Assembly (NCBI GenBank): GCA_025617375.2
Contig: JAMYGW020000002.1
Coordinates: forward strand, 3,162,001 to 3,226,000
DNA: 64,000 nt
Reading direction: 5' to 3'
Origin: Acarospora socialis
Taxonomy: Eukaryota; Ascomycota; Lecanoromycetes; Acarosporales; Acarosporaceae
The notes under the pieces are model-generated. The model searched no databases. It was not told the DNA's origin and saw only the letters and a program-made list of their open reading frames with translations. The position numbers were made by a program, and so were the translations under genes. This document shows positions 42,603 to 64,000 of this stretch, piece by piece (position 1 is the stretch's first letter; each line of letters starts with the position of its first letter).

Positions 42603-42899
42603 TACGGAGGTGTGGCCCACTAGTAGTGCCGCACCCACCAGTTTCTGACTAAGCAATCTGAGAACTTCATCACCTGCAATGAATCAGATTTGAGTGATAC
42701 AACTTTTGCGACTTTACAGCTAATAATTCTCTTTAATAAAATATATTAATTCTATGATATACCAAATAAGAGAAATTAAAAGGAAAAAATTTGTGTAACT
42801 GGGAGTCAAGTTAAATGCTTGCCCATGAGCAGCAGAAAATTGAGGAATCTTAGTCAACCTTGTAGCGCTGCGGCAATACTAGTGGGCCACACTTCCGTA
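42603..42899. mobile_element. MITE-like element 2 with about 31-bp terminal inverted repeats
   Basis: Left arm TACGGAGGTGTGGCCCACTA, right arm its inverse with few mismatches (ACTAGTGGGCCACACTTCCG then TA). Length 297 nt. The interior 42710-42800 is strongly AT-rich and non-coding. Same TACGGA start and TA ends as element 1 but a different interior and arm, so a sister family probably mobilised by the same transposase. Confidence 0.85.
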
Positions 42900-57863: not shown

Positions 57864-59360
57864 GATGAAGATGGGTTAGTTAAGCGTAGACTGACGATAT
57901 AAAGGTCGGTATTGAAAGTAGGCGCAAGGCACTGCGGTAAAAGTAATGACAGTCCTGAAAGCAGTAAAGAGGCATGAGGTGCTTCGGTATTCGAAGCGTG
58001 GAAGAGCTTTGGAGGTTTGTCTGTATAGCGGGCAGTAAAACAAGGCACAGTGGCTGCCAGCAGAAAGGTGGGGTAGGGCCCGCGGCTCAACTGCGGTTCA
58101 GTATGTGCAGTGAATGGATCTCAAGGCCCTCAAATATCGGGAAGATGTACTCGTTGGCTACATAGGTTTGGTCGCCCATAGCCGGCCCAGCGAAAAAGAA
58201 AACGGACGGGCCACGAACCTCTCAACCGAAGCGGAGATTCTGTTCCGGCTTAGCTCCAACTGCACCAATAACTCCCTCGCTTTTATATTCCTCCGTAAGA
58301 ATAGTGGAAACGGTGGTCGGGGTCTCGTTGACCGAATGCGGTTCCAATTACCGGCGGATAGTAGACGGGTGTTTAACGGCCAGATGGAAACTTCGGAAGA
58401 CCTGATAAATAAGAGGATTGTTGATGTAGGGTATGCTTTCCTGAGTCTTCGTATATGGGTGTTGAATACGGACGAGAGGGTAGGTGATCGTGAGGAGACG
58501 GGTGATAGGATGCGAAGCTGGGGGCGTGACGTGAGTGGGGTGCTACCCCAGCTTTTTGTAAGATATGACAATCGCACGTGGATGGGGAGGCGGTTGTTAT
58601 ATAAAAGTCAGGGCTCAAGCCGACCATCACCAGTCTCAAGCTAGGTTTGTACTCTCTATTCTGGACCATTCATGATGATTGGATCTACTGAGATGTTCCA
58701 TGGAGACATTAATAAAGATTTTTATTTGCTGTTGTTGTTTTGCATCCCCATCACGGCGCACCGGAGCTTTTAGAGAGTGGGGTAAGCTAGGTTAAGGTTC
58801 AAAGGCGGATCTCCCGTTCTAGAGCCAGGCAGGCGGGAATCTGATGACTAAGCACCAGCTTTATTTACGACGAGGGCTAGCTTTGTGCCTCGATTCCGCC
58901 GCTGCACTTGCATCCGACCATGGTACGTATTAAGTCACTTAAGGGTCATGATTTGGAAGATCGGTTCTAGCAAATACGAACAGTGGTTCTCAGGCTTTCC
59001 CAGGAGGTCGTCTTGGTCCTCAAGTCCGTCGGCTTTTGGATGCATTACTCTAGGTCGAATCTACCTAGAATAGGCGATACTAAGTAAGGAAGTGGGCTAC
59101 TTGCCCTTCTGGAAAATGTTAGTAGCGACTCTTCGTAAGTATCCTTTTCAGTTGTAAACTTACTGAACTACGGGTGGCTTGACACGGGCCCTTCCTGTGC
59201 ATCTTGGTTAACCGCATCAGATGGGCGCGATGTCCAACAAGAAAGTTGTTTGGTATGGACTCCCTATCTTCAAGTAAGTGAAGGTATGCTAAAGCATGCT
59301 GCAAATCGAGCACCCAATTCGAGTAAAGGCGCCTGCTGCGGTCTCGACAACGAATTGATT
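57864..59360. other. Intergenic, no gene seen
   Basis: About 1.5 kb holding the carnitine acetyltransferase promoter and WD40 gene 3' end. A minus-strand frame near 58158-58577 has no domain and looks fortuitous. Confidence 0.45.
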
Positions 59361-60685
59361 CTATTCACTATCATCCATCAGTTCCGCAAGTTCCCGCTCC
59401 TCCTCCGCCGTCATCAGGGATGGTTTCGCCGGCTGCATTTTCTCTTCCACAAGACCCTCCCTCGCTTTCTCAGCCTCTGCTACTGCCTTGCGCAGGTCTT
59501 CCGGCTTCAGTGACCATTTCCGTATAGTGGCATCGATTGATACGCTTACGACTGTGTGGTCCAACAATAGTAATCCAGTGACTTCCTCATAATGGCCTGA
59601 GAATGTATGGTGGAGCGCTCCAGTCTTCAATGCCGTGGAAGTCAGCAACTCGTTGCATAGTGTAATTGAAGACATGATCACGTACAGCACGGTTCCAAAC
59701 CCTCACATGCTCATCCCTACAGGCAGTGACCACCCATCCCCCTCGATCATCCACAACTACATCTCTCACAAAGTCAGGATGTGTAAGGACGGTGTCAGCT
59801 TTCCATGCCCTTCCCCTGCTGAGACACTTCACAGTCCCATCTGCAGATGCGGTCCACAGATCGTCGTCTGCATCGAAGAATAACTTGTAAACACTAGTTT
59901 CGTGTTCTATAATCGGTTGTGCTTGCAATTCTTCAACAGATTGCTCGTGGCTGATGGTCCACCGCTTGATCTCCCGATCACTGCTCGCACTGAAGACCGT
60001 CACAGAACTTGAAGCTGTAGTGTAAGATGTGGGATCGACCATTAGGTCCTGGATTGCCCCTTTGTGGCCTTTGAGAGTGTGTAGTTTCTTTCGACTTCCA
60101 ATATCCCAGACGATAATGCTCGCGTCAGCGCCTCCGGAGATGAGAAGGGCCCTGTGATCGAGTAATACACAGACAACCGTCTTGACAAAGTCTGTGTGGC
60201 CGACATATCTGTGCCACGGTTCCCGGGTGGAGGTGTCCCAGCTCCAAATAGTCTTGTCCCAACACCCAGCAAAGAGTGTCCGGCCATCAGGGCTTATTGC
60301 AACACTAGTGACAGGACTGGTGGGACCGCGATACACATGCATCTTGTCACCTGTCTATGTTCCCTTCACTGTCAGTGGGCACCTTCGGGGAACGTATTGG
60401 TTATTCTAACGGAGGCGGAGTCTCACCCACTTCAAGCACTACCCTCCTGACTGTTCCCGCGCTCTCTGCGACGTAGATTCGACCGTCATCAGTGGGATCT
60501 GCAATAACCGCAAGTATCTTGGACTGAAGGCGGATTGGGGCGCCATGCGTGTTCTTGGATTTGATGGCCTTCCGGTTGATCTCTTCGATAGATGTACTAC
60601 ACTGTGTCAATACGAGGGGTAAAATACACTATGGAAGTACCCACGTTGTCTGAAAGAAGCGATCTGCGTCTGAAGCTTGTGGCAT
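59361..60685 (-). CDS. WD40-repeat protein
   Basis: Single-domain beta-propeller scaffold; partner unknown. Exons 60685-60641, 60601-60427, 60350-59686 and 59624-59361, 382 residues, phases consistent. The start MPQASDADRFFQTTW joins CSTSIEEINRKAIKSKN. Repeat signatures include SPVTSVAISPDGRTLFAGCW with DKTIWSWD, LISGGADASIIVWDIGSRKK, LKGHKGAIQDLM, SASSDREIKRWTI, DEHVRVWNRATGALHHTFSG and VSIDATIRKWSL, about six to seven blades. The C-terminus is a charged helix (EDLRKAVAEAEKAREGLVEE) then ELAELMDDSE. The intron 59685-59625 was placed to give RVWNRATGALHHTFSGH. Conserved in fungi but I cannot name the orthologue. Confidence 0.88.
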
Positions 60686-61257
60686 TGTACTGAGGGCAAG
60701 TGGTGGGGAGTAGGAAGTCGAGCGCGGTGTCGAGGCCTTATCGATAAGCTGGTGGAAAAACAACTGGGCGTTCAAAACATGTGAATGAACAGCAGAGCCT
60801 GGTGAAGATGTTTCAATATTTGGACCCGGAATTTCAGTCAAGTCAGAAACTCTGCAATCTATTATCACTATGGCAGAAATTGTCCTAGGGCTGACTTGGC
60901 CTTTCTGAGCATGCCTGATAAAGTCTTTACAGCCGCATGATAACTACACTAGCTCCCAAGCCCGTCCTAACACTGCAACGTTTCCGGACTGTAACAGCTA
61001 AGAGGCTAAGGAAATTCTCTAGGATATCAAGTCTTTCTGCAGGCTGCATATTAATTTAGAGATTTACGCGCTAGCCCTAACCCCGATCTTTCCCAGGACG
61101 ACCATTTTCCAAACCGCTGCAGGATTTTCGCAAGACTCAGATGAGGCTTCACCTCATCATCTCCAATGTTGTTTGCCATAGACCCCTCTGGCCCAGGTCG
61201 TTCCTTGGAGGTATCCAACAGTCACGTCTTAACATATAGATCGTATTCACGATGCAC
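60686..61257. other. Upstream of the WD40 gene, no gene seen
   Basis: About 0.57 kb; presumably the WD40 promoter. Nothing recognised. Confidence 0.4.
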
Positions 61258-61535
61258 AAGAGCAGGAATGGCTAACGACCTGCAACAAGTGAAATGCAGT
61301 ACGGAGTGAAGTTGCTGTGGCCTGCAATGGTAGTGAAGCTAAAACAGTAAAAGCTTGACAAAGGTACACGTCCAGGTCACTATGTTCGGCCATATATGAT
61401 ATTGCTCTTCTTGCTTCCATATCACCATGATCGCGTTACAAGCCAAATCCATCACAATACCGCTCCCAGTCTCGCACTCTCCCAAACTAAACTGCTGGCC
61501 AGTGAACCAAGCCAGATCCCATACCACGTTCCACC

Positions 61536-61775
61536 ATGGTTTCAAACACGGTAGGAACCAGTATCCTCGTTGACGATGTATCGCACTGACCTGACAAACA
61601 GGCTACCGTCGCAATAGTCGCCGTTGTCGTTGTGTTTCTAGTATTGCTTAGTGCTGTGCTGATTTTCTGTTGCGGGGTTGAACTGCGGTATCGATGTCGG
61701 GACTATCTCAGTCTGCGATGTAGCTGTATGGAAGCTCCGTGCGATGCTTGTTCTGCGTGGATGGGTCACAGTTAG
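61536..61775 (+). CDS. 62-residue single-span cysteine-rich microprotein, copy 1
   Basis: Family not recognised. Exon 1 is 61536-61550 (ATG plus four codons, M-V-S-N-T), intron 61551-61601 (GTAGGA..AACAG), exon 2 is 61602-61775. The product is 62 residues: a membrane span of about 20 hydrophobic residues (VAIVAVVVVFLVLLSAVLIF) right after a six-residue N-terminus, then CC, then a basic/aromatic cysteine-rich tail ELRYRCRDYLSLRCSC followed by APCDACSAWMGHS. The tail has seven cysteines counting the pair at the membrane. The evidence that it is real is the paralogue 0.6 kb away, which keeps the same exon phase, length, C positions and end motif. Orientation and role are unknown; a small membrane-anchored or metal/palmitoyl-type protein is possible. 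Confidence 0.75.
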
Positions 61776-62148
61776 AGATTCCCATCGGTCGACTGCTGTG
61801 TATGTATATCAAGGCTAAGCAAAAGAGTGAACGACCCGCAACAGGTGAATGACCCGCAACAGGTGAATGCAGTGGCGGAGTGAAGCTGCTGTAGCCCAAA
61901 CACAGTGAAACGCGGCTCAATCGTTATTCGTACTCCTCTGTGGTGTAGTGAAAGCAGAACAGTGAAGGGTTGGCAGAGGTCCCCGTCCGGGTCACGAAGT
62001 TCGGTTATCATATATATGGCTGTTCCTCCAACCCGGGGCCATGATGATCCCGTTCAGACCAAGACCAAGTCCCACCACTCCCAATACTCCACTTCCTCGA
62101 GCAACACTGCTGGTCAGTGAGTGGACCACTTCCGTAACCCGCTTCACC

Positions 62149-62392
62149 ATGGCCTCCGACACAGTAAGAACCTCACACCCACCCACTTTCAGAAACACGG
62201 GACTGATATTACAAACAGGCCGCTGTCGCCATAGTCGCAGTTGTCATCGGGGTTATCGTTTTGCTGAGTGGCGTGCTGGCCTGCTGCTGCGCAACTGAAT
62301 TGCGATACAGATGTCAAGACCACGTCAGCCTCCGATGCAGAATCGTGAAGCGTCCATGCGATGCTTGTTCTGAGTGGATGGGCCACTATTAG
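62149..62392 (+). CDS. 62-residue single-span cysteine-rich microprotein, copy 2
   Basis: Paralogue of the gene at 61536. Exon 1 is 62149-62163 (M-A-S-D-T), intron 62164-62218 (GTAAGA..AACAG), exon 2 is 62219-62392; again exactly 62 residues. The span VAIVAVVIGVIVLLSGVLAC is followed by CC and the tail ELRYRCQDHVSLRCRI with RPCDACSEWMGHY. Comparing the two copies, changes in the tail spare ELRYRC, SLRC, PCDACS and WMGH, and the differences in the span are conservative, which looks like purifying selection on both. The gene is smaller than usual annotation cut-offs because neither exon alone makes a long frame from an ATG. Confidence 0.77.
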
Positions 62393-62730
62393 GAAGACAT
62401 CTCTGGCCGAGTGCCGTGGATTCCAGGCTAGAAAGGGCTGTTCTGTACGCGAGGAATTTAGTGTCTGAGAGGAAACAAAACTGGATGGTGCAACATAAGC
62501 TGTAAAGAGTAACGGCGGGGTAGAGTTCAAGTTGAGGAGAGCCTGCGGGGGGGTGTGTTAGCCTTTGCATCTGTGGTAGTGAATAGAAGGGAGGGTGAGT
62601 CGGGTCACCTCGAAGTATGGATGAGACGTCCATACCAGATGAACACCATCACTTGCAATCACTTGCCATTCGAAGTTCATCAGTCAAGCTGAGGCCAACA
62701 TCTCCATAGCGATTGACTTCTTTGTTCAAA
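62393..62730. other. Intergenic, no gene seen
   Basis: About 0.34 kb between microprotein copy 2 and the SPYTP gene. Confidence 0.4.
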
Positions 62731-63671
62731 ATGGATGGATCACAAATAAGCCCATCCTATCCGTCCATAGGTTCAAGCACTCATGCAATGGATACGACGC
62801 CGACACTGGAGAGGGTATGATCCACCTTGTACACACCTACAGTTCGTTAGTAATGATAAGATAGGGTCGTACTCCGATGACTTTACCTCCTGCATCGACG
62901 ACCACGATACCTCTGGTGCGATTGGCCTTGGAGGTCTTCTCCTATTCTCCAACACCATACACTCCGTCGCCATACACGCCGTCTCCTTACACACCCTCAC
63001 CGTACAGTCAATCTCCCTATACGCTCTCTCCATACACGCCCTCGCCATACACTCTATCTCCGTACACGCCTTCACCATATACACCATCACCGTATACGAT
63101 GTCTCCATACACGCCGTCCCCATACACTCCGTCTCCATACACTCCGTCTCCATACACTCCGTCCCCATACACTCCATCCTCAGATACAGCATCTCCACAT
63201 ACCTTGTCTTCGAACACTGTTGCTCCAGACACTTCATCTTTGTCGAGTACACCTGGGATACCGGGAACGAGTACCTCCAACTCTGAAAGGCCAAGTCCCT
63301 CGGCTGGACCAGGCTTCCCCTCGAGTCAAGGTCTGCGAGAGACAAGCAAGTCATCATCTTCCACTTCCATGGGTTTACTTCCACTCTCGCGCCTATCTGC
63401 ATCTCAGCCACTGTCGTCTCTGAGTTCTTCGATCTCAGTAGTCGGGTATCCCTCGGACTCGCTTCCGCCTCCGATCACATCAACAACCCTCGATCCCGCC
63501 GCTCCCACTAATCGGAGTGTCTATTCGGTTCCACAAACGAACGACTCTGGCACCCACACTGTCGTTGGCGTTATTGTGGCCATAACAGTGACGGTTTTCA
63601 TCCTGACTGCTTTGTTCTTCTGTAAGCATGCCTTCCGCATGCCTGTACTTCAACCCAAAGAGTCTAGCTAA
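62731..63671 (+). CDS. Single-span membrane protein with SPYTP tandem repeats
   Basis: Not a named family. Exons 62731-62814 and 62865-63671, 296 residues in phase; the start MDGSQISPSYPSIGSS has no signal peptide, and splicing joins PTLER to GRTPMTLPPAS. About residues 58-135 are a tandem array of the pentapeptide S-P-Y-T-P with variants (SPYSQ, SPYTL, SPYTM), roughly 16-19 units, encoded by a 15-nt DNA repeat. A Ser/Thr/Pro-rich region follows (about 136-250), then one membrane span HTVVGVIVAITVTVFILTAL and a short basic tail FFCKHAFRMPVLQPKESS. The layout suggests a type of surface-exposed, O-glycosylated stalk. The tyrosine spacing superficially recalls the Pol II CTD, which I regard as coincidence. 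Confidence 0.72.
62945..63185. repeat. 15-nt tandem repeat array encoding SPYTP
   Basis: Units of the type TCTCCATACACTCCG, about 16, some variant. All frames of this array lack stops, so long open frames appear on both strands. Confidence 0.9.
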
Positions 63672-64000
63672 TTCGATAAAAGGGCGGCGCTCGAGGTTAA
63701 GATCAACTTCAAGGCGTTTGAGTTGGCGGTCGTCTCTGTCAAGTCACCCTGCGAGATGGATCTAGAATCCGGGTAGTAGTGAGGGAACCACTGAGAATCA
63801 TGATGCTACATTGTAAGGTTAGCAGAGCTATAACAGGACAAACTCGATGGGCTGCGTTTTGTTAGGTTAAGGGCTGTAGCGGTTAACTGTTAGAGTGCTG
63901 TTTATCAGCATGATTAACGTGTCCTACTCCGAAACTGGCCCACACCAGTGTTAGAGAAGCAGTTTGAGAGGAAATGCAAGTTTGTAACGACTTTATTTCC
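63672..64000. other. Right-edge non-coding stretch
   Basis: No gene recognised; presumably the 3' flank of the SPYTP gene. Confidence 0.4.

Follow-up and report, generated by a model that had tools for sequence, protein, structure and literature searches.

Pmp1 and Pmp2 (PF08114), the proteolipids of the yeast plasma-membrane H+-ATPase, cross the membrane once, and the small secreted cysteine-rich proteins of ascomycetes form another familiar class of short products. CYSTM proteins (PF12734) are defined, in one study, by a C-terminal module with five to six cysteines, three to four of them consecutive, followed by an acidic residue; the same study describes the yeast CYSTM genes as paralogous pairs (PMC10217909). 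In a survey of 31 fungal genomes, the number of conserved small ORFs predicted to be no longer than 80 residues was 1986 (PMC7394265). Here we describe a tandem pair of predicted genes from Acarospora socialis whose products resemble each of these systems in some respects and differ from each in others.

The pair lies in a stretch of 64,000 nucleotides that was analysed as a whole (the window). Both genes, A (61536-61775) and B (62149-62392), are on the + strand and have two exons each; they are flanked by a minus-strand WD40-repeat ORF (59587-60354; Pfam WD40) and by a gene at 62731-63671. The features of the locus are:

61271-61400, + strand: upstream block of gene A, which recurs ahead of gene B, with repeats at 61271-61288 and 61302-61322
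61390, + strand: TATA-like CCATATATGA in the upstream block of gene A, located by eye
61536-61550, + strand: gene A exon 1, encoding MVSNT, from the sequence
61551-61601, + strand: gene A intron, 51 nt, GTAGGA...CTGACAAACAG, phase 0, predicted from the sequence
61602-61775, + strand: gene A exon 2, encoding the hydrophobic span, CC, the cysteine-rich tail and the stop, from the sequence
61827-62020, + strand: upstream block of gene B, where the promoter-like region occurs again, from sequence comparison
62009, + strand: TATA-like CATATATATGG in the upstream block of gene B, located by eye
62149-62163, + strand: gene B exon 1, encoding MASDT, from the sequence
62164-62218, + strand: gene B intron, 55 nt, GTAAGA...TTACAAACAG, phase 0, predicted from the sequence
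62219-62392, + strand: gene B exon 2, encoding the hydrophobic span, CCC, the cysteine-rich tail and the stop, from the sequence

In A and B alike, exon 1 is 15 nt long, exon 2 is 174 nt long including the stop, the intron has the form GT...ACAAACAG in phase 0, and the start codon stands in the context ACCATGG. The first ATG within exon 2 falls as late as residue 48 (A) or residue 59 (B), and an in-frame TGA in each intron, just upstream of exon 2, shuts the exon-2 frame; a start in a separate first exon is therefore required. Because the introns differ in length by 4 nt, the two genes share a frame from the same ATG only after intron removal. Both are predicted to be spliced in vivo. In gene B the frame also stays open ahead of the ATG (62041-62148, + strand, starting ATGATG at 62041), and some of its transcripts may encode a longer N terminus. 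We rejected a conserved N-terminal extension from this position, since the matching 150 nt of A are closed by three stops.

The similarity of the two genes continues upstream of them. An 18-nt block occurs at 61271, 61827 and 61845, and a 21-nt block at 61302 and 61876; relative to A, the block of gene B has one more tandem copy of the 18-nt unit, along with about 41 nt that A lacks. The TATA-like sites, chosen by eye, lie about 140 nt ahead of the ATG; just 51 nt lie between the stop of A and the upstream block of B. Downstream, a 191-nt pair (61585-61775 and 62202-62392) is 72% identical without gaps at a spacing of 617. By this comparison, putative promoter and gene were duplicated in tandem as one unit, the copies lying 617 nt apart at exon 2. 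The earlier note had claimed a tandem pair with these coordinates and exon lengths, with introns of 51 and 55 nt in the same phase, and had held that upstream sequence was duplicated too; the gene structure matches the sequence for both genes, and the 18-nt and 21-nt blocks before each of them bear out the second claim.

The products are 62 residues each, 40 of which are identical between A and B. Each consists of MVSNT or MASDT, a hydrophobic span of about 22 residues (approximately residues 6-27), CC (A) or CCC (B) at its end, and a 33-residue tail beyond the cysteine pair that reads ELRYRC-x-D-x-x-SLRC, a linker that varies between the copies (SCMEA or RIVKR), PCDACS-x-WMGH and one final residue. 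Six cysteines are common to both proteins (28, 29, 37, 45, 52 and 55), with an additional one at 47 in A only and at 27 in B only. Hydropathy peaks at 3.43 (A) and 3.06 (B) in a 19-residue window, so that the single hydrophobic span followed by a cysteine tail, also proposed from the letters alone, stands. The net charge of the first five residues is 0 in A and -1 in B, and that of residues 31-45 is +2 and +1, respectively. AlphaFold2, given only the two exon-2 products, predicted a helix at exon-2 residues 2-31 (protein residues 7-36), with high confidence for the span helix and low confidence for the tail (block pLDDT 93, 88 and 68, then 50-61 in the tail; mean 69.4).

To judge whether these frames encode protein, we compared synonymous with non-synonymous change between the copies, as the earlier note had suggested. 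The coding sequences differ at 55 of 189 nt, distributed over the three codon positions as 16, 12 and 27 (chi-square P 0.037). By NG86, LWL85 and YN00, dN was 0.22-0.24 and dS 0.80-1.33, which gives dN/dS of 0.17-0.31 across the three methods; a maximum-likelihood estimate returned a dN of 0.31 and a saturated dS of 10.4. A dS of about 0.8 or more suggests that the duplication is not recent. When the same base changes were dropped at random (20000 draws each), the mean number of amino-acid differences was 32.0 with A as the starting sequence and 30.5 with B, compared with 22 in the actual pair, and the fraction of placements as conservative as the real one was 0.00005 (from A), 0.0007 (from B) and 0.0002 (exon 2 alone). 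Among the six frames of exon 2, the coding frame had the fewest residue differences (20 of 57, versus 24-34 of 56-57 in the others) and was the only one free of stops in both copies. MAFFT left the coding exons free of gaps, opening them in the intron and in the 5' and 3' regions instead. Amino-acid change between the copies is thus below random expectation; A and B are very likely protein-coding, and the pair looks to be under purifying selection.

This constraint is unevenly spread, although per-site conservation is weak evidence with two sequences only. At residues 51-62, eight codons are identical, two synonymous and two replaced; at residues 28-45 the counts are five, eight and five, and in the 22-codon span (residues 6-27) nine, five and eight. 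All five codons of the linker (residues 46-50) are replaced. Retention of cysteines taken by itself is modest, with 6 of 7 shared (P 0.028 from A, 0.18 from B). The earlier note had argued for selection because length and cysteine positions were kept despite diverged flanks. Its conclusion of selection held, whereas the divergence of the flanks was overstated: under one gap-tolerant scoring, for which shuffled intron or 3' sequence gives about 55%, identity is 194/257 in the 5' region (75%, 15 gap runs) and 127/173 in exon 2 (73%, two gap runs). The 5' flank being about as similar as exon 2, selection is visible in the pattern of change and not in raised identity.

To look for relatives, we searched the genome (31.1 Mb, 38 contigs), structure and family databases, and the literature. 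No third copy was found in the genome with protein A, with a degenerate tail pattern at up to three mismatches or with the tail of B, in searches that score just the top candidates from an initial screen, so that far-diverged copies may escape. The tail pattern had one three-mismatch match, on contig C5, and the reversed-pattern control likewise gave one per strand. DNA searches with the upstream region of A and with 61500-62450 returned only the self-match and not even the upstream copy of B; identity of that degree is thus out of their reach, and they do not establish that the block is unique. Within the window, 42792-42890 (+ strand) matched the tail of B weakly (E 0.004 without composition correction), a score reached in 0 of 1000 peptide shuffles and by none of 40 shuffled tails that were run against the window. 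It is an AT-rich stretch with no span before it, stops close by and no gene context, and its similarity to the tail is probably due to chance. In the same assembly, two rDNA copies (C18:105800-107600 and C28:19900-21700) have no mismatch in 1802 aligned columns; there are 16 gap runs in the C28 copy and one in the C18 copy, and those of C28 look like sequencing or assembly error in a small contig.

No Pfam family reached its cut-off for A or B, whether the queries were exon-2 ORFs with four leading intron-derived residues or the spliced proteins; the latter were scanned at E up to 10, with filters that drop most matches above about 0.1. Sub-threshold matches fell mostly on the span. ECSCR was rejected at E 0.005-0.006 and about 17 bits against a cut-off of 27, as were SecE, EphA2_TM, YlaC, DAG1, Insulin_TMD and CR_prot_dom_plant, all below cut-off or far weaker. 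The PDB yielded matches neither by fold nor by sequence, and Rfam at gathering score gave no RNA family in 58000-64000. No relative was confirmed in 44 pattern stretches from viral contigs or in 53 from prokaryote genomes, negatives that are expected for a fungal gene and little informative. Four tail strings were absent from the open-access papers searched, and literature searches led to general work on smORFs, CYSTM and effectors, none of it recognisably on these proteins. The earlier description of the pair as undescribed therefore stands for Pfam, the PDB, viral and prokaryotic contigs, its own genome and the tail strings in open-access papers, and extends no further than these searches. 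Judged by sequence comparison, the pair is orphan relative to the families searched, and small genes of this sort are no rarity among fungi.

How else might the pair be explained? A non-coding or decaying duplicate with accidental open frames would account for a copy number of just two and for codon usage that is not coding-like: the coding frame is not favoured (mean log-odds -0.12 in A and -0.07 in B, with the best minus-strand frames at +0.09 and +0.16), and the CAI-like value of A lies slightly under the range of five long window ORFs (0.754 in A and 0.808 in B, versus 0.763-0.836). The open frame by itself is weak evidence, since it also stays open when the changes are scattered at random, in 38% of the draws that start from A and 19% of those from B. 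Frame, intron and stop have nevertheless been retained across all of the differences between the copies, and the synonymous excess, the gap-free coding alignment and the rarity of equally conservative placements leave this explanation very improbable. Still less credible is an origin as an offshoot of the adjoining gene, with start and span copied from it. That gene (62731-63671, + strand) is modelled with two exons and a 50-nt intron (62815-62864) and encodes 296 Ser/Thr/Pro-rich residues with 15 PYT/PYS pentapeptide units of the SPYTP repeat, a span and a short tail; its second exon matched no Pfam family at E up to 1, and from its sequence the product looks like a mucin-like single-span surface protein. 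A 26-residue local match links it to the span region of A (38% identity, E 0.27), but 8% (A) and 17% (B) of 1000 span shuffles each score as high, so the match is not clearly above chance; moreover, the model has no intron at the place of the A and B introns, and the tail of its product lacks the cysteine pattern.

A diverged small membrane protein of CYSTM or proteolipid (Pmp1/Pmp2) type, past recognition, would agree with the size, the single span and the clustering of cysteines. Against it, neither CYSTM nor PMP1_2 was listed for A or B in the Pfam scan at E up to 10, the span sits close to the N terminus and precedes most of the cysteines, so we give this origin a slim chance. In the genome, the PMP1_2 profile gave only one sub-threshold place, on C5, and the CYSTM profile matched only C2:2642658-2642786, a CYSTM gene with a Gly/Pro/Tyr-rich N-terminal part, ending LCAGLLGALACCCCLDFMF / LGALACCCCLDFMF. 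The chief and most serious rival is a secreted cysteine-rich peptide, in which a signal peptide is cut near residue 30 (CCG/VE in A, CCA/TE in B) to release a tail of about 32 residues with two disulfides. The proposed cut agrees with the rule for signal-peptide cleavage, position -1 holding a small residue and position -3 a tolerable one, and the tail cysteines common to A and B (37, 45, 52 and 55) are even in number. Signal peptides are also shorter, as a rule, and begin with basic residues; here the uncharged stretch is long (31 residues in A, 27 in B), and basic residues follow it with none ahead, which favours an N-out anchor. A carries a fifth, odd tail cysteine, and the AlphaFold2 helix crosses the proposed cut, with falling confidence, although many signal peptides would model alike. 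We consider secretion unlikely, yet the alternative most deserving of attention.

Our preferred reading, held tentatively, is that A and B are two tandem orphan paralogues, spliced once, whose products would be uncleaved N-out/C-in membrane microproteins with a cysteine clasp in the tail. Around the gene structure, the duplication, the protein constraint and the hydrophobic span, all read from the DNA, we infer the topology, acylation, metal or redox chemistry and partner as follows. Gene and promoter would have been duplicated together, giving paralogues that each encode five residues, the span, the cysteine pair at its end and the tail. The span is followed by a flank of net positive charge, and the N terminus is uncharged or negative. 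Under the charge rule for the orientation of membrane proteins, this predicts that the protein stays uncleaved in an N-out, C-in orientation, its tail probably cytosolic. The span would then be a lasting anchor rather than a cleaved signal peptide; the charge bias across it is small. Cysteine pairs at membrane faces can be acylated, and given the predicted cytosolic tail, the pair is probably acylated or at the membrane face, while C37-x7-C45-x6-C52-x2-C55-x5-H61 would probably form a small metal- or redox-sensitive clasp. Such a set of residues could bind metal. Through the clasp, the protein might assist a larger membrane protein as an accessory, or it might act as a membrane thiol protein that is induced by stress. 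A bolder version is a long shot: a lineage-restricted membrane microprotein family with a new cytosolic C-x7-C-x6-C-x2-C-x5-H module that binds metal or senses redox state next to the membrane, in which the linkers SCMEA and RIVKR have diverged for different partners.

The observation is real and of an ordinary kind, one among many small genes. Annotation easily overlooks genes of such small size whose first exon has five codons, and a tandem pair makes selection measurable inside a single genome. A genuine cysteine module would mean one more family of small membrane proteins for fungi.

Set beside known systems, the predicted A and B proteins share with Pmp1/Pmp2 a very short N terminus, a single span and a basic flank after it; Pmp1/Pmp2, to our knowledge, are without the cysteine-rich tail of A and B. 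Like the ascomycete small secreted cysteine-rich proteins, they have a hydrophobic N terminus and, after it, a short tail in which four cysteines are shared, but their hydrophobic stretch is longer than usual, lacks a basic start and has anchor-like charge. CYSTM proteins, too, are small one-span proteins of eukaryotes with cysteines clustered at or near the membrane, and in the yeast work cited above they come as paralogous pairs. They are tail-anchored, however, with the cysteine run inside the C-terminal module, whereas A and B match neither that profile nor the module's arrangement: their span lies near the N terminus, at about residues 6-27, with two (A) or three (B) consecutive cysteines and a cysteine-bearing tail of 33 residues after them.
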